A DNA stretch of 64,000 bases from Siphonodentalium dalli (taxonomy: Eukaryota > Mollusca > Scaphopoda > Gadilida > Siphonodentaliidae): positions 96,493,319-96,557,318 of the forward strand of contig CP136066.1 in NCBI GenBank assembly GCA_032622095.1, in the 5' to 3' direction. Below the pieces are notes generated by a model. It made no database searches. It saw only the letters and a list, made by a program, of their open reading frames with translations, and was not told where the DNA came from. Below are positions 1 to 59,815 of this stretch, piece after piece; position 1 is the first letter of the stretch, and each line of letters starts with the position of its first letter. Position numbers and translations under genes: made by a program.

Positions 1-272
1 GCGTTCCTGTCTCGTTAAAATAGTTGGCATTTTAAATTTTCCATAACACTTTATAACTCTATGAATGTTCGATATGGACTATAGGTTGTTTGTCCGCAGT
101 AATTCACTTCAACAAACACGACTAACACTAGTCACATTGAGCTCAATCAACGTCAACTAACCCGCCGCTTTCTCACGGGCATAATCTTTGCAGCAAGAAA
201 ATATCAGAGTACAATTGTACCTGATATTTTCTTGCAGATATTTTCTTGCAGCTTCATCTGTACGCGCCCTAA
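1..272 (+). repeat. Half copy of a palindromic (foldback) element
   Basis: This stretch matches one arm of the large palindrome at 62012-63433. Shared landmarks are ATGGACTATAGGTTGTTT, TTGAGCTCAATCAACG, TCTCACGGGC and the ATATTTTCTTGCAG motifs. It stops at the sequence that forms the centre of the palindrome (GCGCC then TAA in the other copy; GCGCCC then TAA here). The other arm is not found beside it: after position 272 the big transposon starts, and the sequence after 11923 is an unrelated AT-rich minisatellite. No gene is seen. Confidence 0.75.
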
Positions 273-338
273 TAGTCCAGGCACATTAGACATAAAAATG
301 AGAAAGTAAGGAAAAAAATCGGAGAAAGCTGATTTTTT
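273..338 (+). repeat. Left terminal inverted repeat of the large transposon
   Basis: The outer 17 bases are identical to the reverse complement of 11904-11920. After about 15-20 diverged bases, the GGAAAAAAATCGGAGAAAGC block matches again. This copy is about 9 bases longer than its partner because of the extra run around ATGAGAAAGTAA. Confidence 0.85.
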
Positions 339-381
339 TATATGTTTCCGGGACACACATTGCGGATAAAGTGTGAAAAGT

Positions 382-810
382 TATGGAATCCTATTACGGC
401 CACTTGCTAATGGCGCTTTCGGCGCACTTTTTGTCGCTTTCGGCGCATCGCGCCGAAAGCGCCGAAAGCGACAAAATGTGCGCCGATCGGCGCACTTTTT
501 GTCGCTTTCGGCGCTTTCGGCGCGCGCGCCGAAAGCGACAAAAAGTGCGCCATTAGCGTTGTTTCGGCGCGCGCCGAAAGCGCCGAAAGCGCCGAAAGCG
601 ACAAAATGTGCGCCGATCGGCGCACTTTTTGTCGCTTTCGGCGCTTTCGGCGCGCGCGCCGAAAGCGACAAAAAGTGCGCCATTAGCGTTGTTTCGGCGC
701 GCGCCGAAAGCGCCGAAAGCGCCGAAAGCGCCGAAAGCGACAAAATGTGCGCACCGCGCCGAAAGCGACAGAAAGTGCGCCATTAGCGCGGTGCGCCATT
801 AGGGCATGTA
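382..810. repeat. GCGCC/GAAAGC foldback array, left end of nested element
   Basis: After the terminal ATGGAATCC...GCTAATGG stretch, the array alternates GGCGCACTTTTTGTCGC and its reverse complement, with TTTCGGCGC or CGCCGAAAG spacers repeated one to four times. A higher-order unit of about 130 bp recurs (GATCGG at 485 and 615). Every unit is self-complementary, so a single strand could form a chain of hairpins. The open frames here are simple repeats in all directions and should not be called genes. Confidence 0.9.
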
Positions 811-1859
811 TACAATTAAGTATGTGATCAGCCCAGCAGGGGTGCCGGAAGAGGGGGCAGCTGATCCCCTGCCCTTGACCAAGGGGGCAGGACTTGCCCT
901 TTTTCTGGAGACAGAAAATGCTGTGTTTAATCTCGTGTTTTTATAGCAAAATGTAACTTTTTGGGTCCAAATACCACCAATTTCACAAGGAATATTAATT
1001 TTTTGTCAAAAACGGCCATAAAAACCGACAAATACCTTTAAAATAGGGATTTTTGCCACAATGAATTTATGGTTGTTTTTTCCGAGTTTGCGGAGAAAAT
1101 TTCCTTTTTTGGGCAGAAAAGTGCCATTTTTGTAGGCTCTCCCCCCCCCCCCGATGCCCTTGGATGCTCCCGGCACCTCAGTGCAGATCGGACATGGCCA
1201 TATGTGTACAATGTATAGGCCTATGTATCAATTTTAAAAGGGAGGGGCTGAATTTTGCTGTAGATACACCTCTAAATGCTATAATTTGTCATTATTCAGA
1301 TTTAAAATTATTTATTAATATGGTACTTAACACATGTATGAATTTTCACTATAAATGAGTCTAAATATAGTCAAGTGATTAGTATGCATACATTTGAGCA
1401 ACTTTTTAAGTGAGTGTTGCCGCATGTAATTAAATGTAATATAATGAAAAAGTCTGTTAATAATTGAACACCACAACTGACTGTCACTAGCTGTGATAGA
1501 CTTGCAGTGAATATATTGATTGAGTAATTGGCAATCATGAATATTTTTGTGGGACAAACCCCAGCTTCTGGCATGATTCAGGGTACGTTCATACGCTGGC
1601 AAGTTTGCAAGGTACATTTTTGTGGGCATTTCGTCATAGAAAACCACATGGTGCCAGAATATGAACGGAAATATGCACCTAACATGCATCTTTACCAGAG
1701 CGAAAGACATCGGAAGTAACATTTATATAGTTCCACTTGTACTACCAGTGCTACCTCCAAATACCTGTATGATTTATTCTTGTGAGATAATTTGCATGAT
1801 ATTTACAGGCAAATTCCGGTAGCATCGTTACCAGTGGAACTACAGAGATTTATTTCGCA
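811..1859. other. Interior of nested foldback element, no gene
   Basis: AT-rich sequence with a C-run at about 1141-1152. A short imperfect inverted repeat lies at 1728-1842 (TAGTTCCACTTGTACTACCA... against TACCAGTGGAACTA), which may be a small MITE. The open frames of 60-130 codons on both strands overlap one another and show no recognisable motif. Confidence 0.5.
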
Positions 1860-2760
1860 CGTATACTAGTAGTTAGCCCCCCAACTTTGGTCAAAAGTAT
1901 AACAGTTGGAAATTTCATACTTGCCAAAACATTAGTTGGAAATTTCACACCAACAATAGGTGAAATATGTTCTTGTAGTTTGATTATAAAACAATTTATT
2001 GGGGGGGGGGGGGGAAATGTTCCTATGTTTGGTAAAAACTTTGGACAGAAATGGTCATCAGTTGGAAATTTTCCAACCTTAGGGGGGGGTAACAGATTGG
2101 AAATTTCCAACACTTGGAAAGCTTGTGTCCTGGTCCCTCCCCCGTGGCCAGTCAAAAACTTCTAGTTAATTTAAGAAAACAATATTGTCATACATTTGGT
2201 CAACATTGTCATTGGAATTGTCATCAGTTGAAAATTTTCCAACCTAAGTGGGGGGTGTAGGGTTTAAATTTACAACGGTAGGAAGGCTTGAGGCTAGTGT
2301 AGATGTTACGATTTCAAAATTTTCTTGTTAAGATTTCTAAATTTTCGCACACCGGATCGAACCATGGTCGGCCCGGTGTGTCATTGCCCCACATCCACAT
2401 GGCCAATACAAAACTGCTAATTAGTTTAGCAAAACAATATTTTACTACATTTGGTCAAATTTGTGGACAGAAACGGTCATCACTTCCAACCTGAGGGGAG
2501 TATGAGGTTTGAAATTTTCAAATAACTAATAAATGTTCAGGTTAAAATATCTGTCAATGTTCTCATACCAGGAATATAGAAATATAAAACCATGGCTTAT
2601 GAATATATTAGAAATTAGGCCTGACTGAGGTTCAAGGGGGGGGGGGTGCAAATGGAATTATTCAAAAACTTGTGTTGGTCTGATTCTGACTAAAGGGGGG
2701 ATGCAGTTGGAATTTCCCAAGGTGGACACCCCCCCCCCCAAACATGTAGTTGAAATTGAA
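1860..2760. repeat. Dispersed repeat with GGAAATTTCCAAC motifs
   Basis: Contains repeated CAGTTGGAAATTTTCCAAC-type motifs, G or C homopolymer runs (for example 2000-2013), and phrases such as TTTAGCAAAACAATATTTTACTAC. The same phrases occur in the opposite orientation at 35.8-37.27 kb and in partial form at 22.38-22.64, 46.87-47.02 and 63.22-63.64 kb. No protein is supported. Confidence 0.7.
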
Positions 2761-3109
2761 GTCAGAAGAACCCCTCCCCCCAGATTGTGCCATGAAACTT
2801 TACTCTGCATAGTGCTTGTAGAGATATTATTCCATCAGTGCAAAACATGGGAACTTTTTTTATGTTCTAACATGGAACTTTATAACATTGAACAAACAAG
2901 GCAGAGAACATGTTGGACTCTCCGTTACCACATCCCTGCATCCATGCGAATGGGGGGGGGGGGTTCAGGAGCTGTGGCTTTTGAAGTTCACTCACCTAAT
3001 TGTAATTCCATATTTCTGATAAAACTTATAGATAATTTCACGGTGTGTAAAATTTAGAAAAAAATTGTCAACAATAAACGCCTCCATTTTAATGGCATAC
3101 AGAAGTTAC
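2761..3109. other. No gene seen; inner spacer of foldback element
   Basis: AT-rich sequence between the GGAAATTTCC repeat and the right array, with C- and G-runs. A 118-codon open frame (2701-3057, plus strand) crosses these homopolymer runs and shows no domain. Confidence 0.4.
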
Positions 3110-3537
3110 TATGGAATCCTATTACGGCCACTTGCTAATGGCGCTTTCGGCGCACTTTTTGTCGCTTTCGGCGCATCGCGCCGAAAGCGCCGAAAGCGAC
3201 AAAAAGTGCGCCATTAGCGTTGTTTCGGCGCGCGCCGAAAGCGCCGAAAGCGACAAAATGTGCGCCGATCGGCGCACTTTTTGTCGCTTTCGGCGCTTTC
3301 GGCGCGCGCCGAAATAACGCTAATGGCGCACATTTTGTCGCTTTCGGCGCACCGCGCCGAAAGCGCCGAAAGCGACAAATAGTGCGCCGTTACGGCGCAC
3401 TTTTTGTCGCTTTCGGCGCTTTCGGCGCTTTCGGCGCGTTACTAATGGCGCACTTTTTGTCGCTTTCGGCGCTTTCGGCGCATCGCGCCGAAAGCGCCGA
3501 AAGCGCCATTAGCAAGTGGCCGTAATAGGATTCCATA
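3110..3537. repeat. GCGCC/GAAAGC foldback array, right end of nested element
   Basis: Same composition as the array at 382-810. It starts TATGGAATCCTATTACGGCC and ends with the reverse complement of that sequence, so by itself it is a complete 428-bp unit with terminal inverted repeats. It has no matching direct repeat of its own: AGTTAC lies on the left and AAAAGT on the right. The duplication AAAAGT pairs with the far-left array instead, so the whole 3.16-kb block moved together. Confidence 0.88.
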
Positions 3538-4237
3538 AAAAGTCCCCGCGAATCCGAGTTGAGCTTTTTTAGTTATAGCGTTTTTTTGATGAAAAAAAAA
3601 ATTGAAAAAAAAATTCGACCCAGCTCCATATTTCTCATTCTTATTCGCCTTAGTAGGGTGAGAATCATAAATATCGTGCTGAATTATATTGAGAATACAT
3701 ATCCCCAACAGAAAATGCCAACTTTGTACCAATCCTCACACTCAATGGTGAAATATTCACGAAAATGTACAAAATTACGAAAAAAAAATTAATTGTTTTC
3801 ATACACACAACGGTACACAACGTCCATTAAATCAAATCTACGACTACTTTGGGAGTTAAATTATATATCAAAAATTGCAGAAAAGCAGTGGCTTTATAAT
3901 GATATATAACAATAGTCATTTATTCCATAATGAACTGGTGAAACGTGTGAAATATTAACCATACCCCCTAAACTCAAATTCAAACGGCATCGACTTTTCT
4001 CATTCAATTTCCTGATGAAAGTCGTTCAAGGCTATATTGCATCAAAAAGAGCGTTGTTCGCCTACACTCAAGATGCATTGGCATGTAATGTGTGCACGCC
4101 CTTTATAAACAAATTTGTTACGACAACGCTCTTTAATTCCGCATTCCAGGTCTGTCCATTGCACAATTTGCTCTGTTCAGTATTGGACACTCCGCATTTG
4201 ATGCCTAGATATTGAAACCAATGATCCCTTGATAGAT
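3538..4237. other. Left subterminal region of the large transposon, no gene
   Basis: The first about 33 bases (AAAAGTCCCC...GAGTTGAGC) are the displaced continuation of the left TIR and pair with 11793-11827. The rest is AT-rich with A-runs and has no coding region I can support. Confidence 0.6.
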
Positions 4238-6791
4238 ACATATGGGGACATGACAATCTGCGGAATGGGATGGAATATGGAATAGAACGACAATCTGCGG
4301 AACAGAATTTCAAATTGCGTGGAACGGCCGATATCTCGAGGAATACAGGGCGTATGGCGCTCATGTTGGTGTCTAACGAAAGGCCCACATTCGCCCTATC
4401 CACACATATTAACCCCGCCACTGACCGGACACCAGAAGTTGCATTATTTGATCGAAAACTGACCTAACATGGGGTGAAATTTGGGATAGCATGGCAATCT
4501 GCGGAACGGAATTTCAAATTGCGTGGAACGGCCGATATCTCGAGGAATACAGGGCGTAGGGCGCTCATTTTGGTGTCTAACGAAAGGCCGATATTCGCCA
4601 TATCCACACATATTAACCCCGGACACCGGAAGTTGCATTATTCGGTCGAAAACTGACCTAACATAAAATGCCACAAACACGAAAAACTGCGTTCGACATT
4701 AATGTTTAGAATTTAGATTTCTCGACGAATACGCTAGCAAACACCAAGTTTTAGGTATCAAATAACGCAGTGGAATACTGTGCACTCGTTTTTATCTACA
4801 ATATGGCTGTTTTAGTGCGAAAACTGTAATAGCGAAACGCAAACAAGCGCCGATAAAACAGCTAAAAATAGACTCGATGTTTACATTTACACGATCGATT
4901 TCAGCTGGTATATTCAATATAATGGGGCGTATAGTATATCAAAATGTAGGATTAGACACAGGGAATGTATTTTTTTCCAAATGGGTCCACCACGCGGTGA
5001 AATTGTTGCAGAAATTCGCTCCAAAATATTCGCACTTCAGTTGTGACTAAAAGCCCAGATGCCGGAGCCCGGCGACTAAAAGCCAAGTTACAAAATAGAT
5101 TAACTGGTTTGAACGCATGAATATGTCAATGGTCAGACTGTTGGAAATAATACCCAATTTTTTTTATAGACTTATATAAACACTTACGTGTGAAACTCGA
5201 ATTTTAATTAAATCCATGATTGTGTAGTCTCTCGTATATCACGAACACTGCGCGCACACATTTTATTGGAATACATGCCATCTTTGCCTTGTGTTTTGTT
5301 TAGTTTAGTTTTTTTGGCGACCAAAGATGAGATGTGTTCGCACCACACTGTGCTAAGGCCAATGAAATCACTGAATTTCAGATTATCAGCTTAACCGCAT
5401 TATTTCATTAGTATCTGAAGCAAATTAATGAACACCATAAACAATAGAAAATTAACACAGCTCTTCGTGCGGGATAATCTTTAAAGCCAGTGACACCTCA
5501 GTCATCCTGACAGACTGTACAAACATAATGATAATGGGGCATTATGCATCATGAATATTTTTGTTAATTGGAATTGTCAAATCTAACATGCATGTTGTGG
5601 CTTCTAAGTAAACAAATTACCAGTTTTTTTAAATGGAGGCATGATGTTAAAGGACTCTTAGTTGCAATTAAGACCCTCGCAATAAATGCTTCAACAAACG
5701 CTCTTTATTGACTACCCTATACATGTTCTATGTATACTATAGGGCGACTGTATATACACAGACGGTATAGATAACTTTTAAGAGTGTTAACAATATTTTA
5801 TTAGAACGAAAAAACAGAACGTCACATTTACAATGTATACATAGAAAAATAACAAATAGTTCAAATGGCGATATGATAACAAGCAACAAGCAATATTCAT
5901 GCGTTCAAACCAGTTAATCTATTTTGTAACTTGGCTTTTAGTCGCCGGGCTCCGGCATCTGGGCTTTTAGTCACAACTGAAGTGCGAATATTTTGGAGCG
6001 AATTTCTGCAACAATTTCACCGCGTGGTGGACCCATTTGGAAAAAAATACATTCCCTGTGTCTAATCCTACATTTTGATATACTATACGCCCCATTATAT
6101 TGAATATACCAGCTGAAATCGATCGTGTAAATGTAAACATCGAGTCTATTTTTAGCTGTTTTATCGGCGCTTGTTTGCGTTTCGCTATTACAGTTTTCGC
6201 ACTAAAACAGCCATATTGTAGATAAAAACGAGTGCACAGTATTCCACTGCGTTATTTGATACCTAAAACTTGGTGTTTGCTAGCGTATTCGTCGAGAAAT
6301 CTAAATTCTAAACATTAATGTCGAACGCAGTTTTTCGTGTTTGTGGCATTTTATGTTAGGTCAGTTTTCGACCGAATAATGCAACTTCCGGTGTCCGTTC
6401 AGTGGCGGGGTTAATATGTGTGGATAGGGCGAATATCGGCCTTTCGTTAGACACCAAAATGAGCGCCCTACGCCCTGTATTCCTCGAGATATCGGCCGTT
6501 CCACGCAATTTGAAATTCTGTTCCGCAGATTGCCATGCTATCCCAAATTTCACCCCATGTTAGGTCAGTTTTCGATCAAATAATGCAACTTCTGGTGTCC
6601 GGTCAGTGGCGGGGTTAATATGTGTGGATAGGGCGAATGTGGGCCTTTCGTTAGACACCAACATGAGCGCCCTACGCCCTGTATCCCTCGAGATATCGGC
6701 CGTTCCACGCAATTTGAAATTCTGTTCCGCAGATTGTCGTTCTATTCCATATTCCATCCCATTCCGCAGATTGTCATGTCCCTACATATGT
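4238..6791. repeat. Large imperfect palindrome upstream of the transposon ORF
   Basis: The left arm (about 4238-5124) and right arm (about 5894-6791) are near-identical reverse complements separated by a spacer of about 770 bp. Each arm contains two tandem units of about 204 bp (CAATCTGCGGAACAG at 4291, CAATCTGCGGAACGG at 4495). The second unit of the left arm lacks about 10 bases present in the right arm. The right arm ends about 200 bp before the transposase-like ORF, so it may hold promoter sequence. The 65-codon frames in the units are repeat-derived. Confidence 0.88.
5125..5893. other. Spacer of the palindrome, no gene
   Basis: AT-rich loop between the two arms. No open frame of useful length, RNA gene or repeat family was recognised. 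Confidence 0.5.
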
Positions 6792-6987
6792 AATTTTGCC
6801 TGTTGTTGATTATTAGAGTCTTGTGTTATTTGTAGAACTGATCAGTTATGTTGTTGGCATATCACTTAGCGTTACCTGTTGATACCTTACGGTGACAACG
6901 AAGCAGGTCCGCACATTGATATCTGTTCTGTGGTATTGTACTTGAGTTTATTGTGTCTATCATCTTTTTTCTGTTGTGACTTTGGCA

Positions 6988-9942
6988 ATGGATAAATGTA
7001 TCAAATGTAACGATGAGTTGACCGGCTCGTCCGGAATAACTACACTTGGTGAGCGGGGTATAGAAAAGTTGGTTGCTGTAAGCGTCGAGCTTGGCGATAA
7101 TCTTTTTGCCGGTTCGAAGAAACCCACAGTTGGTGAGAAAATTCACAGATTCTGCTACAAGAATTATACACGGGAAAGTTCTGTAAGAAAAAGTAATAGA
7201 ATGTCTCTAGATGCAGCTGAATCTGACGAAGCTGGTCCATCTATGACAAAAAAATTGCGCTCTGATCAAGATGCTTTCAATTTTAAACTCCATTGTCTGT
7301 TCTGTGGAGAATCCGCCGACAAACAAACTCATATACCCGTTCAACGTAGAAGAGAAGTCCACACCGTTGAAACATTGACTCTTGTTGATAGTATCAGAAC
7401 CCGTTGTTTGAAACGTAGTGATGAATGGGGTGAGTCTGTACTTACTCGGATCGGTCGTGCTATCGATCTAGTGGCCGAGGAAGGTCGGTATCACCATGAT
7501 TGCTGGACAGGATTTGTCAGAGATAAGCCTGAGCGAACTCTTTCACGGGGTAGGCCTGTTGCAGACAAGAAAGCACTTGCATTCCATGAATTGTGTACCT
7601 TTATGGAGAACAGCGATGAGTGTCAGTTTTCCTTGAGCGAATTGGCAGAGACGTTTGAATCGTATCTTGGTGACGAAGTCGGTTACACAATTAAACATCT
7701 TAAAACCAAACTGCTTGAGCATTTCGGTAGTAGAATCTCTATTACAACACTGAGGTCCCTAAAAAATGTTGTCACATTCAGAGATTCATCAGACAAAATA
7801 CTATATGATTCGTGGTACTCAGACAAATGTACCAATGAAACCGATGAACGTATGCGCATCGTCAAGAAAGCATCGGCTATAGTCCGCGATGATATTCGGT
7901 CAACCATTTACGAGTGTGACGTTTATCCCAAACCCGATTCGTTATCTGTATCTAGTGATCTACTACCCGATACACTCCAAACCTTGTTACAAGGGATTGT
8001 TGCTCCGTCGCAGCGTGGGCAAAACATCCAAGCCAACCAGAGACGCGTGACAGCCATAGGTCAGTCTCTAATAAGTTCTTGTCGGCCCCGTTCATTCTTG
8101 TCACCAGTATTATTGTCGGTAGCAGTTTACATACATAGGAAATTCGCATCTCGGGAATTGATCGACATTCTGAATGGACTAATGTTCTCTTCTAGCTACC
8201 GGGAAGTTCAACAATACGTTCATTCTGTCATGATAAGCAAAGGTCCGTCGCCTAGACTTGCGAACTTCACACAATTCGTTTTCGATAACGCCGATTGTAA
8301 TGTGCGCACGCTAGATGGCAAGAATACTTTCCATAGTATGGGAGGCATCGCCTGTATAACTCCAAGCAGAGATCACACAGAAGAGTCTCCGATAAAACGA
8401 CTAACTGGTGATCATTCGAATATTGGCTCTGGTGAATTCGGGTACATCCCTTTGAAAGGTTACAGTAAACCAAGCAAATCGGGTCTTGACGAAATTGTGA
8501 TGAAGGATTTATCAACATTGGGTGAATCTGATCCGAAAAATTTGAAACTCGCAAAAACAGTCGACAGTCTTTGGTCTTTGACGCATGTACTGAGAGTACC
8601 TTGCCCATCTTGGGCTGGATATATGCACATTGTCACATCATCAGATGATTATGAAACAAGTGATGTCGAGATACTTCCCTTTATTAATTTTGATCCATCC
8701 AACCCGAGCACAATTTACACTGCTCTCATGTTTGCACAAACTGAATGTGAGAAACAGGGACTGAACGTTTGTCCAGTGACGTTTGACCAACCACTTTATA
8801 TCAAAGCAGTGGAGATTGTGTCTTCGTCAGATAAGTTGACAAAAGTTTTCGTTAGACTCGGCGGCTTCCATATGATTATGTCATATTTAGGGGCAATTGG
8901 TTCGATCATGGCTGGTAGCGGCTTGGATGAACTTTGGAGGACTGTTTATGCTGGTGGGTCAATCCATCATTTGATCAGTGGTCATGCATATTCAAGAGCA
9001 GTTCGTGCCCATTTGCTAACACAAATTGCCATTACAAAACTTGTGTTTGAAGAAAGCCGAACACTAGATAACATAGACTGCACAGAAGTCAATGAAATAT
9101 TCTGTGGACTTGCCAGAGGTGACTGTACAACAGCTGACGCTGTCAATCAAGAAAGTGTCAACCATCTACTGTCAAAATTACACGAACTGCTCCAGAATGC
9201 GTCCGTAGGACGCACAGGAAAGCTTTGGGTACAATACTACGAGCAAATAGGTCTTCTCCAGTTGTTCTTGAGAGCAGAGCGCACAGGCGACTGGGAACTC
9301 CACACATATTGTGTTCGCAATATGATTCCAGTATTTCACGCAGGTGGTCATTTTGCATACGCAAAAAGTTCTCATCTCTATTTGCAGCAGATGAATGAGC
9401 TAACAGAAATAATGCAACAGGATGATTTGAAGTTGTTCACTGAGAAAGGTTACTTTACCATAAGGCGCTCAGATAAATTCTGGGACGGGATATATTCTGA
9501 TCAGACCATAGAGCAGTGTTTAATGAGAATGTTCAAGCTCCCTGGTGGTCTCACACATGGCAGGGGAATAACCGATAGCACTGTTGCGAAATGGGTACAT
9601 GGACTACCTCTTTGCCTTCCGATATGTAATGCTCTCGAAAATTTTGTTAATGTTCACACTGGTCATGGCGAACAACATCGGGATCTCCGTCAAAGTTCAC
9701 AATTGACTGATGCCAATGATATCACCAAATTATTGAACTGGCTCAGAGTGCATTCCCCCTTTCAGATTAGAGATCCACTACAATTAGTCTCTATAGCGAC
9801 CGGGTTTGTGGCCGACGAAACTGTGAACTGTGACCAAGTTCGCAAAATTGGTGAATGTTGCGTATCGAATGTTGTAAGCAAAACGTTCAACAGCATCAAA
9901 CTACGACGTGTTGACACTGTGAAGTCCGTGGAAGTAAGGTAG
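6988..9942 (+). CDS. Transposase-like protein with two zinc modules and a DDE-like core
   Basis: A 984-codon uninterrupted frame. The in-frame GTG at 6976 is upstream, but ATG 6988 (GGCAATGG, good start context) is the likely eukaryotic start. Two similar zinc-binding-like modules are visible: C4-x2-C7 with H53-x2-C56, and C103-x2-C106 with H169-x2-C172. The middle holds FDNADCN (D433), TFDQ (D600), GGFHM then SYLGAIG (625-638), GHAYSRAVRAH (665-675) and AERTGDWELH (E764). The spacing of D433, D600 and E764 and the G-x-FH motif resemble RNase H-fold transposases of the KDZ/DUF6589 type; this is inference from motif memory. The protein probably binds transposon DNA and catalyses strand transfer in the nucleus. 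It resembles an uncharacterised protein family common in invertebrate genomes. In those relatives the frame continues into the nuclease region, so TAG 9940 probably reflects a frameshift. Confidence 0.8.
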   Translation: MDKCIKCNDELTGSSGITTLGERGIEKLVAVSVELGDNLFAGSKKPTVGEKIHRFCYKNYTRESSVRKSNRMSLDAAESDEAGPSMTKKLRSDQDAFNFKLHCLFCGESADKQTHIPVQRRREVHTVETLTLVDSIRTRCLKRSDEWGESVLTRIGRAIDLVAEEGRYHHDCWTGFVRDKPERTLSRGRPVADKKALAFHELCTFMENSDECQFSLSELAETFESYLGDEVGYTIKHLKTKLLEHFGSRISITTLRSLKNVVTFRDSSDKILYDSWYSDKCTNETDERMRIVKKASAIVRDDIRSTIYECDVYPKPDSLSVSSDLLPDTLQTLLQGIVAPSQRGQNIQANQRRVTAIGQSLISSCRPRSFLSPVLLSVAVYIHRKFASRELIDILNGLMFSSSYREVQQYVHSVMISKGPSPRLANFTQFVFDNADCNVRTLDGKNTFHSMGGIACITPSRDHTEESPIKRLTGDHSNIGSGEFGYIPLKGYSKPSKSGLDEIVMKDLSTLGESDPKNLKLAKTVDSLWSLTHVLRVPCPSWAGYMHIVTSSDDYETSDVEILPFINFDPSNPSTIYTALMFAQTECEKQGLNVCPVTFDQPLYIKAVEIVSSSDKLTKVFVRLGGFHMIMSYLGAIGSIMAGSGLDELWRTVYAGGSIHHLISGHAYSRAVRAHLLTQIAITKLVFEESRTLDNIDCTEVNEIFCGLARGDCTTADAVNQESVNHLLSKLHELLQNASVGRTGKLWVQYYEQIGLLQLFLRAERTGDWELHTYCVRNMIPVFHAGGHFAYAKSSHLYLQQMNELTEIMQQDDLKLFTEKGYFTIRRSDKFWDGIYSDQTIEQCLMRMFKLPGGLTHGRGITDSTVAKWVHGLPLCLPICNALENFVNVHTGHGEQHRDLRQSSQLTDANDITKLLNWLRVHSPFQIRDPLQLVSIATGFVADETVNCDQVRKIGECCVSNVVSKTFNSIKLRRVDTVKSVEVR

Positions 9943-10685
9943 TGATTGACCCCACAATTCTGTTCAACCGCATCACATGTGTTATTCAGTCACAAGCAGA
10001 GATGGAAGAGTATCTCAAATATGAACTCGCCCCGAAACCAACAGCATTGTTTGATTCTGCTGGAATGAGGAAGACACAGAAAAGCACGCTCGGTAAGATC
10101 CTCAAAACATACGGTTCCGAGCAAACTAAAATCCCAGAACATTCTCTGTTTGTTGTAGATGGTGGATTTTTATTGAGGGCAGTTGTATGGCCTAAACAGT
10201 CGTCATATAAGGACATATGTACATCATATTCCAATTATCTAGTGAGACATTTTGGGGCGAACGTCGTGGTTGTTTTTGATGGTTATGCTTGTACAATGTC
10301 GACAAAGGGCATGGAACAAGCCCGTAGATCTAAAAACAGGTATTCCATTGATATCAATATCTCACCCGAGTTACCAGCCACCACACCCCAATCCGATTTC
10401 CTTGCAAATGCCAAGAACAAAACCCAACTGATCGATCTTCTAATGCAGGAGCTATCTGCTATCAATATTCAGTCCAAGCAGGCCGAGGCTGATGCTGATG
10501 TACTGATAGCCGAAACTGCACTTGACATCGCTCAAGATGACAACAATGTTGTCGTTGTGGGAACAGACACAGACTTGTTAGTCATTCTTACCTCTCGAGT
10601 TCAACCGGGATGTAATATTCACATGATGTATTCCATTACCCAAAACTTACTAGTTTCAGTTAGTGAAATAGCAACCTCCTTGTAG
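9942..10685 (+). pseudogene. FEN1/XPG-like nuclease region, first part, frameshifted from the upstream ORF
   Basis: Open frame of 247 codons in a different frame from the upstream ORF and overlapping its stop by one base. It opens on GTG, which is not a usual eukaryotic start, so it is probably a continuation of the 984-codon protein. Acidic active-site positions of the FEN1/XPG family are visible: VVDGG (D at 10158), VFDGY (D at 10278), EADADVL (E at 10485, D at 10491 and 10497) and GTDTDLL (D at 10566 and 10572). This family cuts flap or branched DNA using two metal ions. A GTAAGG donor at 9934 and TTCAG ending at 9989 could form a 56-bp phase-0 intron that rejoins the frames. However, 9945-9989 reads as plausible family sequence, so a frameshift near 9936-9942 is more likely. 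Confidence 0.7.
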
Positions 10686-10879
10686 CACATTCTATAAGTG
10701 GTTGTGACACTACTTCTGCACTCTTTCGAGTTGGTAAGAAGAAAGTATTCAGTACAATTGTCTCCGATGTTACTAGCGACTCACAACAGTATGTCAACAC
10801 AATTTTGGCGGATGACAGTACACCAAGTGCAGTAGCCGCTACCCGGGGAACAACTTCTCCTGATCTTATACGGGAGTAA
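10667..10879 (+). pseudogene. Nuclease continuation with SGCDTTS motif, shifted frame
   Basis: The reading continues in a third frame: AHSISGCDTTSALF, then RVGKKK, at 10685-10744. The GCD motif supplies the last acidic residue expected in FEN1-type enzymes and begins the helix-turn-helix region that follows it. The frame has stops at 10661 and 10664 and ends at TAA 10877. The joint with the preceding frame must therefore lie between 10666 and 10684, and the family reading leaves this frame again at about 10840-10877. Confidence 0.65.
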
Positions 10880-11294
10880 AACTGTTTCCTCTCTCGACCA
10901 ATATAGATATGTCACTTACAAGCGTTATGTTGCAAAATCTAAACTGAATAAACCCATCGACCTAGCCTCACTCCCACCAAGCAGCGATGCTGCACAACAA
11001 CATGTCTACAGATGTTATCTCCAGGTCCAACAATGGCTGGGCACTTCGCTTCCTCCGACGGATTGGGGGTGGTCGCTAGACAATGGACTTCTTGTACCGA
11101 CTGCAGCCACAAAGCCATGTGCCCCCGATAACCTACTGAATCTGATCAGTTGTGGTTGCAAGAGTGCTTGTACAAAAAGGTGTGGGTGTAAGAAGGCAGG
11201 ACTCTCTTGCTCAGGTTTGTGTAATTGCAGTTCGGATTCTTGTAACAACCACAGAAACACTGTCCTGTCGGAAATTTCTGAGTTCGATGAATAA
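10840..11294 (+). pseudogene. C-terminal part with TSO1/tesmin-type CXC cysteine motif
   Basis: From about 10851 the sense frame reads LLLILYG and then a region ending AAQQHVYRCYLQVQQWLG, which is familiar from the same invertebrate family. At 11151-11249 a cysteine cluster follows: CGCKSACTKRCGCKKAG, then CSGLCNCSSDSCNN. This C-x-C-K...C-x-C pattern is the CXC motif of TSO1/tesmin/MSL2-type DNA-binding domains, which coordinate zinc. Stop TAA is at 11292. No start codon is needed, because this is the C-terminal end of the broken multidomain gene. Confidence 0.72.
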
Positions 11295-11864
11295 TATGTA
11301 TATAGGTCATGTCATTTCTGTATATAGCGTTGATAATAGTCAATGTAACTTAATCCATGTTGATTGATTTGTACATCGAAAATAGTTGAGTTCTCATGCT
11401 GACGAATTTTATGCCAAAAGGGGAACTCGGCCAGAAGCAGAGGGGGTCTTCCATAATGTCTATTTTGTAAGCAATGATAAAAGTCTTCAAATGGTGGTGG
11501 ATTTTTTATCGTCTGTCCAACTAACATCCCGTTCTGTACTACGACCCTTTGGGCAAATCCGTTAGGAAAATCGTAATTTTTTGCGTAAATCCGATACTTT
11601 TTTGTGAATTTTCAATAATTTTTCGCAGAAATTGTCACAGAATGCACATTTTCCTCTAGGTAAATGTATATTAGACATTATGTAGCTCGAAATACGCCTA
11701 AACAAAAAATACAGTTGGATCAATTCGAGGTTACAAAGTTCGTGCGATTTTTTTTGATTTTTTTCAAACGCGTTTTCGAAAAAAGGCTGTAGAAAAAAAA
11801 GCTCAACTCGGATTTTAGGGGACTTTTGTCTAATCGTTCAGTGACATGTACTCGACATTCCCTG
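11295..11864. other. Right subterminal region of the large transposon, no gene
   Basis: AT-rich sequence after the stop codon. The part at 11793-11827 pairs with 3538-3570. Poly-A and poly-T tracts dominate and no polyadenylation signal stands out. Confidence 0.6.
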
Positions 11865-11920
11865 AAAAAATCAGCTTTCTCCGATTTTTTTCCCTAGTGA
11901 AACCTAATGTGCCTGGACTA
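11865..11920 (-). repeat. Right terminal inverted repeat of the large transposon
   Basis: Reverse complement of 273-338, with the same AAAAAATCAGCTTTCTCCG block and the perfect 17-base terminus. It is followed by TAA, matching the TAA before the left end. Confidence 0.85.
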
Positions 11921-12035
11921 TAAGTTTATATTTTAACTCTAACTTAATATTTTAACTCTAACTAAATATTTCAATTCTAAGTTAATATTTTAATTCTAAT
12001 ATTTCAATTTTAACTCAACATTTTAACTCTGACAA
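11921..12035. repeat. AT-rich minisatellite
   Basis: Short degenerate units of roughly 16-20 bases built on ATTTTAACTCTAACTTAAT, repeated about six times beside the right end of the transposon. Confidence 0.75.
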
Positions 12036-15339: not shown

Positions 15340-16070
15340 CAAGAAACAATTCAATTCACTCATACTGGAACGGAAATATATTTTACAAATGATATCTATT
15401 TTTGAAGTTTGTTTATTTCTTGAGATGTGTAATAATCTGTGACCCAGAAATACGTGGTCAAACGAAAGGTCTCGGACAAAATTGCGGATGAAGATGGATA
15501 ACTCTAAAATCAAGTGGTAATACGGCCAAATTTCGAGATACTTAAAGGTATTCAATCCGATCAGATGCTCCTAGATTAATATTTCTTTGGCTTCGGGGGT
15601 AACAAATATTTGATTTGAGTCGAGGAACCCGCCCATCAAAGTTCAGAGTGATCACATATATCGATTTTTGAAGTTTGTTATTTCTCGAGATGTGTAACAA
15701 TATGTGGCGCAGCAACACGTGGTCAAACGGAAGGTCTCGGACAAAATTGCGGATGATGATGGATATAACTCTAAAACAAGTGGTAATACGGCCAAATTTC
15801 GTGATACTTAAATGTACTCAATTCGATTAGATGCTCCCAGATTACTATTTCTTTGGCTTCGGGGGTAAAGTATTTTATTCGAGTCAAGGAACCCACACAT
15901 CAAAGCGCAGAGTGATCAAGTATCGATTTTTGAAGTTTGTTATTTCTCGAGATGTGTAATAATATGTGGCCCAATAACACTTGGTCAAACGGAAGGTCTC
16001 GGACAAAATTGCGGATGAAGATGGATAACTCTAAAATCAAGTGGTATTACGGCCAAATTTCTTGATACTT
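15340..16070. repeat. Tandem repeat, about 260-bp unit, three copies
   Basis: GGTCTCGGACAAAATTGCGG recurs at about 15468, 15734 and 15993 (spacing 266 and 259). Each unit also carries TTTCTTTGGCTTCGGGGG and a GAGTC[G/A]AGGAACCC phrase. Diverged single copies occur at about 41.65, 42.47, 44.2, 44.85 and 45.3-45.5 kb. Confidence 0.85.
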
Positions 16071-16541
16071 AAGTAATAATACGGCCATATTTTGTTGAAC
16101 AAAATGTTGATAAATAACAAGTTTTGGAAATTTGATACCATATTTGACAGTGGTTAGCATTATTTTGTTGTAATAAAACGATTCTTATAACTAAAACGTA
16201 TCTTGAAGAAATGTTGTTGTTGTTGTATCTTGATGATATGGGGACCGTCTGATAGGATTGAGTACTTGCTCCCGTAATTTTAACCATGAGACTATTTAGA
16301 CCGTAAGTTGATTGAAATGAAACACCGTCTAATCTTATTTAGACTGTAGGGTATCATAAAGGATTTAGTCATACAAAGAGTAAGACCCAAGATGGCCGCT
16401 AGCGGCCATGTTCTTTTAACATAATTCAGAAATGAAAGTGTTAATGACACTGTAGCTCAACATGGAGAGGGGGTAATTCCATGTTATACATTCAATGGGG
16501 CGACTAGGAATGCGGACAGTTGAAATGTCTAAGTAATACTA
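16071..16541. repeat. Dispersed repeat fragments, no gene
   Basis: 16075-16270 resembles 45490-45610 and the reverse of 43975-44165 (CAACATGTTGATAAATAAC, TATGGGGACC). 16370-16440 carries a copy of the CCAAGATGGCCGCTAG-type unit that is arrayed at 19.2-20.85 kb. Confidence 0.55.
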
Positions 16542-52803: not shown

Positions 52804-53184
52804 CAGGGCCTGGAACCTACGTCACCGGAAGGGTAACCCTAACATCAAAATAACTGTAAATAAAGTTCGACTCGCTACTTCGACATCGATTTTTAAATAA
52901 ATACAATCGATTTCGATGTAGTATTATAAGCAAAGGAGCTATGCGACCTGCAAATCTCAACAAATACAGAAACCGAAAATCGGAAAGAATTGCTCAGGGC
53001 CTGGAACCTACGTCACCGGAAGGGTAACCCTACATCAAAATAACTGTAAATAAAGTTCGACTCGCTACTTCGACATCGATTTTTAAATAAATACAATCGA
53101 TTTCGATGTAGTATTATAAGCAAAGGAGCTATGCGACCTGCAAATCTCAACAAATACAGAAACCGAAAATCGGAAAGAATTGCT
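52804..53184 (+). repeat. Duplicated left end of the CAGGG transposon, two 191-bp units
   Basis: The first 191 bp of the element, ending AAGAATTGCT, are followed at 52995 by a second CAGGGCCTGG copy that is identical apart from one missing A near ACCCTAACATC. Confidence 0.9.
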
Positions 53185-57984: not shown

Positions 57985-58635
57985 ATACAATTGACCGATA
58001 CTCCCATGGCTACAATCTCGGACAGGTCGGATTTACTTAACACACCCATTACTGAGGGTGAAATCGCCACTTGTATAAGCCATTTAAAGTCAGACAAAGC
58101 ATCATCCGATGACGGAATCCGCAACGAATACCTAAAAGCTTCAGCGGGAAAACTCATGCCGTTACTGATAAAACTCTTTAACTACGTGCTCGATATAGGG
58201 TGTATCCCGGATTCATGGCTTGTGGGTTCTATTATCCCAATATATAAAAAGAAAGGAAGCAAGCAGGAACCAGGCAATTATTGGGGTATAACATTATTGA
58301 GCTGTTTGGGGAAACTATTTACGTCAATTTTGAATACGAGACTCACACAATTTTCTCATATGTTCAATGTAATTCACGAAAATCAGTCAGGATTTCGAAA
58401 AAAGCACTCGACCATTGACAACATTTTTATAATTAATTCTTTACTTGAAATAGCTAGATATAAGAAAAAGAAGATGTTCTGTGCATTCATAGATTTCGAG
58501 AAAGCTTTTGATAGAGTTTGGAGAGAAGGTATGTGGTATAAACTCAGATTAAACCAAATCACTGGTAAAATATATCGCGTAATTGTGAATATGTATGACA
58601 TTTTTTTGGAGTTTGGTGACAATTGGCCAACATAA
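57985..58635 (+). pseudogene. LINE reverse transcriptase fragment, N-terminal half
   Basis: The frame reads an RT fingers/palm region: ITEGEIATCISHLKSDKASS, then KLFNYVLDIGCIPDSW, IIPIYKKKGSKQEPGNYWGI, SGFRKKHSTIDNIF and the motif-A block FIDFEKAFDRVW carrying the first catalytic aspartate. This is a Jockey/CR1/Nimb-like non-LTR retrotransposon RT. Motif B (GxxQG) is missing because the frame ends in inserted sequence at about 58620. TTG 57991 is not a true start; the segment is the middle of ORF2. Confidence 0.85.
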
Positions 58636-59296
58636 TTTATATGCCATAGGAAGTCATGTCGCCCGCCGCATATTCACACAGTGAGTCGACTGACCAATTA
58701 ACCCATTGCGTTTCACCAAGGCTGATCTCTACTCATTACGTTTAGCCACATTGTATTCTCTACCATACATAAAATTGCACGATCGATCGTCCAGAATTGT
58801 GTTTGAACCCATTCACTCACATATCATGCACGTGGCATGTTTTATTGATATGATCTGAATACATGTTTATCTACATATATTATTTTCACGCGTATTAAGT
58901 CAGTTCCCCAATTGCGTGTTTTATTTTGCGACGTTAAATTCTACGCATAATTAGGCTAGCATCATGTGGACAGATGAAGCTGTATCGGAATTGTTGGAAG
59001 AGATGCAGATAAGAGAAAGTATATGGAATAAACAAAGCGACATAACACTTACAAGAAAACCATAGTCAGAAATGGTAACGCCACCAAGATCGTATTATTA
59101 GCCATAAATATAAATAATAATACAATTATTCTATAAACTAGCTTTCAAATTTTATGCGGGAAATTTGCGTACTTCCATATTTCAAGTTTTCCCGTTTCTC
59201 GTGGCATACATTACTTTCATCAAACTGTCTTCTTTATTACACAAGCTGATTCACCCGGGCTGTTTCCCATCTGCTTTCCGGTGAAAGGTGCGATTT

Positions 59297-59815
59297 GACC
59301 TTCAATTGACTATTTCGAAAGTCAAGGTCAGGTCAGGGTCATGATTTGTCCAGTCCAAAACACCCCCACCCGTAGAAAACTACCCATAGGTATCAAATTT
59401 CGTCGAAATCCGTCCGTTTTACCCAACTTGACCTTTAATTAACAATTTTGAAGGTCAAGGTAAGGTCAGAGTCATGATTTGACCCGTCCAAAACACCCCC
59501 CCCCCCCCGACAAAAGTACCCATAGGTATCAAATTTCGTCGAAATCTATCCGTTTTATCCGAGTTGACCTTTGATTGGCCATATTGAAGGTCAAGGTCAG
59601 GCCGAGGTCACGATTTGACCCGTTCAAAACTCTCATCGGACCAAAGTATCCCTAGGTATCAAATTTCGCCGAAATTTGTCCGTTTTACCCAAATTGACCT
59701 TGCATTGACAGTTTTAAAGGTCAAGGTCAGGTCGGGGTCACGATTTGACCCGTTCAAAACACTTCCCGGACACAAATACCCATAAGTATCAAATTACGTT
59801 GAAATCTATGGAAAG
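59297..59815 (+). repeat. Tandem repeat, about 133-bp unit, four copies
   Basis: TTGACCTT[T/G]xATTG starts recur at about 59297, 59429, 59563 and 59695, each followed by AAGGTCAAGGTCAGGTC, GATTTGACCCGTCCAAAACA and TACCCATAGGTATCAAATTT. Confidence 0.88.

Follow-up and report, generated by a model that had tools for sequence, protein, structure and literature searches.

The locus considered here lies in the scaphopod mollusc Siphonodentalium dalli (assembly GCA_032622095.1, contig CP136066.1, positions 96,493,319 to 96,557,318 of the forward strand), a stretch of 64,000 nucleotides called the window below. It raises two questions: is the sequence between positions 273 and 11920 of the window a transposon that has moved, and to which kind of transposon does it belong? 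A first-pass annotation, made from the letters and without database searches, had described it as a large DNA transposon combining DDE-like, FEN1-like and CXC modules, and had left it outside any named superfamily. We report that it is a member of a real, recently mobile transposon family, of which the window holds one broken copy. With high confidence, we assign this copy to a recently active, presumably cut-and-paste family within the AcademX lineage of the Academ superfamily.

Paired ends, genomic copies and an empty site

The transposon copy occupies positions 273 to 11920 of the window, with TAA directly outside both ends. The 16-mer TAGTCCAGGCACATTA is found at 273-288 on the forward strand and at 11905-11920 on the reverse strand, in both cases without mismatch, and no third site exists in the window when up to 3 mismatches are allowed. 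The chance estimate for this count, made at up to 3 mismatches, is a loose one (mean of 0.49 sites, at least two sites in 8 of 100 shuffles). Alignment of the longer ends, together with the other genomic copies, is stronger evidence for the ends than the 16-mer count. The two ends form an inverted repeat of about 190 base pairs (bp), gapped and skipping the insert at 382-3537 described below, with a local score of 81, where 300 simple letter shuffles reached 28 at most. The terminal inverted repeats announced by the first-pass annotation are therefore real, as the exact 16-bp ends, the aligned longer ends and the copies with the same ends all attest, but its figure of 66 bp for their length was too short. 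The end sequences of the family read TAGTCC...GGACTA.

The host assembly (2,226,750,531 bases in 9 contigs) was searched with P0001, the 984-residue protein encoded at 6988-9942 of the window. This search gave 52 match rows, representing the best 46 of 3,061 candidates, so that the counts derived from it are lower bounds. Counting the window, at least 20 places reach 95% identity or more over residues 1-980. Over about 2.94 kilobases (kb) of the gene, the median pairwise identity among 20 copies was 99.7% and the lowest 99.5% (190 pairs, gap columns ignored). Besides the window, 14 of 19 genomic copies departed from the majority base in 0 to 5 of 2,968 columns, and the other five in 12 to 48 columns, three of them mostly by gaps. 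Given the near-identity of its copies, we conclude that the family moved very recently. The last 145 bp of the right end matched at 99-100% in at least 28 places, of which 27 matched throughout and one over 143 bases; the best 40 of 1,420 candidates also comprised a 123-base match at 100% and 11 matches at 85-86%. Two pieces with right ends of 85% similarity, L067 and L068, had no left end within the approximately 1 kb that was read. Relatives of the protein were also sought in viral contigs and in prokaryote genome contigs, and none was confirmed.

Target duplications were scored on 25 end-paired copies, window included. A 3-bp duplication was found in 20 of the 25, one of which sits in a GA repeat where its length is not measurable; 3 copies (L011, L026 and L027) had a duplication of exactly 4 bp, and 2 had none. 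Not counted among the 25 are a copy whose right end falls outside the piece read (L013), four loci without a left end (L033, L034, L036 and L037), and the rows of the protein search that gave no locus. As a control, the left end of one copy was compared with the right end of another, and the flanks were equal in 34 of 600 such pairings. The duplicated sequences are mixed: CTG, CAG, CAA, TGA, ATG, TGT and others.

One copy, L023, is inserted in a dispersed repeat. When its two flanks were joined with one TAA and used as a query, 38 of 40 matches crossed the junction, the 2 others being its own flanks (best 40 of 4,251 candidates). All five of the 38 paralogues that were read carry TGCTAAATGACG with a single TAA. 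These paralogues are a direct empty site. The TAA target duplication, put forward as possible by the first-pass annotation, is thus established both by the trinucleotides at 270-272 and 11921-11923 and by the single TAA of the L023 paralogues. The search of the host genome that it had recommended, for copies with the same ends and for empty sites, yielded both, with the at least 20 protein matches, the 25 end-paired copies and the L023 site.

The insert-free element and its protein

The genomic copy L010 is 5,982 bp long and lacks both inserts found in the window copy (Table 1). The sequences duplicated around the two inserts, AAAAGT and TACATATG, are each present once in L010, and both inserts are members of other families with many genomic places. 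Dozens of other places match the left end of the insert at 382-3537 with 96-100% identity (best 40 of 1,779 candidates). The insert at 4245-6782 has copies elsewhere at 98-99%, at least 5 of which lie as inverted pairs with a spacing of about 3 kb (best 40 of 2,522 candidates); because of these pairs, the window's version looks internally deleted. Its 8-bp duplication suggests a hAT-like element. A length of 11.6 kb for the element itself is rejected, as two unrelated nested transposons account for the excess, and the "large" element of the first-pass annotation is reduced to about 6 kb. In passing, the insert at 382-3537 contains palindromic arrays of CGCTTTCGGCGC-type units, with a tandem unit of 130 bp between 450 and 730.

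In the window, the coding region switches frame near 9930, 10680 and 10850. In L010, from MDKC onward, 1,453 residues are unbroken and comprise the transposase, the nuclease part and the cysteine cluster. The single coding region that had been proposed is thus whole in L010, but interrupted by three frame switches in the window copy. The longest stop-free frames were 1467 residues in L010, 1461 in L012, 1469 in L018 and 1465 in L027; the tail of L027 is exchanged for unrelated sequence, and L012 differs in the last residues. Half of the places that match residues 1-980 (10 of 20) have open frames of at least 1,458 residues with no stop inside the match, and the broken frame of the window, as a feature of the family such as introns, was rejected on this ground. 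Two loci on contigs C3 and C9 (L031 and L032, longest stop-free frames of 689 and 1391 residues) form a sister family, about 70-73% identical in protein, with the same domain order. They share the 16-bp ends of the window family, and their duplications are of 3 bp.

The transposase frame and the residues D433, D600 and E764 were recovered just as the first-pass annotation had given them. The three acids, conserved in the sister family, would form a DDE core, which probably catalyses the cutting and joining of DNA.

The resemblance of the region after 9942 to flap nucleases is supported but weak, as judged from profiles and motifs. With the window protein, PF02739 matched in the nuclease part at E=0.0015 and the NCBIfam model of flap endonuclease Xni at E=0.00033, each below its curated cut-off. 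Six acids are invariant in the window, L010 and L032, namely the D of VVDGG, the D of FDG/YDG, the two D of ADAD and the two D of GTDTD; a seventh, the D of SGCDTT, is the same in L010 and L032. This is the pattern of acidic positions expected of FEN/XPG enzymes. A PADLOC search with the nuclease part only gave no match, and a PHROGs search gave one chance-level match (E=0.54). Concerning the tail, the cysteine cluster looks CXC-like by eye; the Pfam matches listed for the window protein include Metallothio_Euk (E=0.46) but not a TCR/CXC model. Of the module set first described, the FEN-like part is thus retained through weak profile matches, and the CXC-like tail by eye alone.

Table 1. Positions of the transposon's parts and of its nested inserts in the window
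Feature	Position	Strand	Remark
Target-site duplication, left copy (TAA)	270..272		equal to 11921-11923
Left terminal inverted repeat, outer part	273..381	+	109 bases identical in L010; resumes at 3538
Nested unrelated transposon, ends TATGGAATCC/GGATTCCATA	382..3537		absent in L010; 6-bp duplication AAAAGT at 376-381 and 3538-3543
Left terminal inverted repeat, inner part	3538..3611	+	pairs with about 11748-11827
Second nested transposon, inverted arms of about 0.9 kb	4245..6782		absent in L010; 8-bp duplication TACATATG at 4237-4244 and 6783-6790
Transposase part, 984 residues (P0001): N-terminal CxxC...HxxxC motifs, DDE-like core	6988..9942	+	residues 1-980 matched at 95% or more in at least 20 places
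Codon for D433, presumably the first catalytic acid	8284..8286	+	same residue in L031 and L032
Codon for D600, presumably the second catalytic acid	8785..8787	+	same residue in L031 and L032
Codon for E764, presumably the third catalytic acid	9277..9279	+	same residue in L031 and L032
XPG/FEN1-like nuclease part, shifted frame here	9942..10682	+	weak PF02739 and Xni profile matches; invariant acids
End of coding region: SGCDTTS (last nuclease motif), then a linker and, at about 11143-11262, the CXC-like cysteine cluster	10683..11291	+	two shifted frames here; one frame in L010
Right terminal inverted repeat	11748..11920	-	last 145 bases 99-100% identical in at least 28 places, window's included
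Target-site duplication, right copy (TAA)	11921..11923		equal to 270-272

Elsewhere in the window, a 214-residue open frame at 57991-58635 resembles, by eye, a fragment of reverse transcriptase from a long interspersed nuclear element (motif FIDFEKAFDRV), and tandem arrays are present at 15392-16072 (266-bp unit), 52804-53184 (190 bp) and 59295-59807 (130 bp).

Placement of the family

The Academ superfamily reportedly goes back to Kapitonov and Jurka in 2010, and its lineages are said to have been set out by Kojima in 2020. In AcademX, the nuclease is of the XPG type; a literature search found no paper joining AcademX or Academ with XPG in the transposon sense. Academ is listed among the superfamilies added to Repbase, with Kapitonov and Jurka 2010 cited, in PMC4455052. 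According to PMC10045372, AcademX and AcademH both belong to the Academ superfamily, AcademX with duplications of 3 or 4 bp and AcademH with duplications of 9 or 10 bp, and this difference seems related to the encoded helicase and nuclease. The 100 curated bivalve Academ elements of PMC10294476 average 5,565 bp in length. The family of the window is placed in AcademX because the printed description of this lineage comprises duplications of 3 or 4 bp and a nuclease that accompanies the transposase. The first-pass annotation, which could not assign the element to any named superfamily, is corrected on this point, since the 3- and 4-bp duplications, the nuclease and the length fit AcademX and Academ as printed.

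Several observations weigh against this assignment or the reading of the protein on which it draws. The placement was made by printed description, not by homology of the core to Academ sequences, and residues 1-984 had no significant match in Pfam, NCBIfam or the Protein Data Bank. In L064, a relative in a more advanced state of decay, part of the core is missing, and E764 with it; the two copies without a duplication (L014 and L018, 2 of 25) do not show the expected footprint. As for the nuclease, both profile matches fall below curated cut-offs; with the whole L010 protein PF02739 reached only E=0.036, and it is absent from the matches listed for L032. Alignment by hhalign with E. coli Xni was weak (E=0.047, probability 1.1), although co-linear over the four motifs, and searches of solved structures by profile or by single sequence did not find FEN/XPG enzymes, nothing significant being returned.

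Among the alternatives, the one that survives best, with a very small chance of being right, is that another superfamily with 3-bp duplications acquired a nuclease. PIF/Harbinger and EnSpm/CACTA typically also give 3-bp duplications. PIF/Harbinger, however, prefers TWA as its target duplication, whereas the duplications here are mixed and include 4 bp in 3 of 25 copies; EnSpm/CACTA has CACTA-type ends, unlike the TAGTCC...GGACTA found here. Moreover, no Pfam transposase model was among the matches listed for the window protein, L010 and L032. Placement in either was rejected on the mixed 3- to 4-bp duplications and the TAGTCC ends.

Slightly less probable still is an unnamed superfamily whose likeness to AcademX goes no further than the length of the duplications and the set of enzymes. 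It would explain why the library searches gave no significant match to the core, the likeness to Academ being one of description; duplications of 3 to 4 bp, a nuclease beside the transposase and the element length nevertheless all agree with AcademX and Academ, as the printed sources describe them. An element of the KDZ (Kyakuja-Dileera-Zisupton) or DUF6589 kind, the profile check suggested at the outset, deserves no more credence than the unnamed superfamily: KDZ elements do have a large multi-domain transposase with cysteine clusters, but no KDZ, CxC or DUF6589 Pfam model was among the matches listed to E=10 for the window protein, L010 and L032 (a listing whose filters drop most matches above about 0.1), and this placement was rejected. 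Kolobok was rejected as well, since the duplications here are of 3-4 bp and mixed sequence and not TTAA.

We conclude that the AcademX assignment accounts best for the family, which matches a kind of mobile element already described and does not constitute a new class.

Possible mechanism and comparison with known systems

From the arrangement of the protein, we infer the following roles for its parts, in a transposon that would move by cut-and-paste rather than by copying. The zinc-finger-like motifs at the N-terminus probably bind the inverted ends; the DDE core would cut the element out and join it to target DNA with a stagger of 3-4 bp, and repair of the staggered gaps would give rise to the observed duplications. 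The fused FEN/XPG-like nuclease may trim flaps or ends, and the CXC-like tail probably adds DNA binding. That the nuclease processes branched or hairpin intermediates, as the first-pass annotation had suggested, is a conjecture. That it acts in transposition itself by trimming flaps at the joined ends we regard as rather unlikely, though worth stating. Were it so, the duplication would be expected to waver between 3 and 4 bp, and nuclease activity would set the duplication length in the lineage. That near-identical copies have duplications of either 3 or 4 bp would agree with trimming to a variable extent, but a stagger of variable length would explain it too. With its near-identical copies, open fused genes, empty site, and 3- and 4-bp duplications within one genome, this is a clean, recently active AcademX family, in which the part played by the nuclease in transposition can conveniently be studied.

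Compared with known systems, the family is closest to AcademX. It shares with this lineage, as described in print, duplications of 3 or 4 bp and a nuclease encoded with the transposase, recognised here by motif order and weak profiles. Terminal inverted repeats are likewise shared with AcademX and Academ, and the 5,982 bp of L010 are near the bivalve Academ mean. No difference from AcademX appeared among the features tested here. AcademH belongs to the same superfamily, but its printed description gives it a helicase and duplications of 9 or 10 bp, in contrast to the 3-4 bp of the window family; no helicase model was among the Pfam matches listed for the window protein, L010 and L032. The KolobokE, KolobokD and KolobokP lineages carry accessory nucleases, and Kolobok duplicates TTAA, according to PMC9587614. 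They are, as there described, like the present family in being DDE transposons with an extra nuclease, and differ from it in their TTAA duplication, compared to 3-4 bp of mixed sequence here, and in the type of the nuclease. Finally, E. coli Xni, with the XPG/FEN1 nuclease family, differs in that the sequence similarity is weak, and has in common with the nuclease part the order of the acidic motifs VVDGG, VFDG, ADAD and GTDTD, which runs co-linear with Xni.

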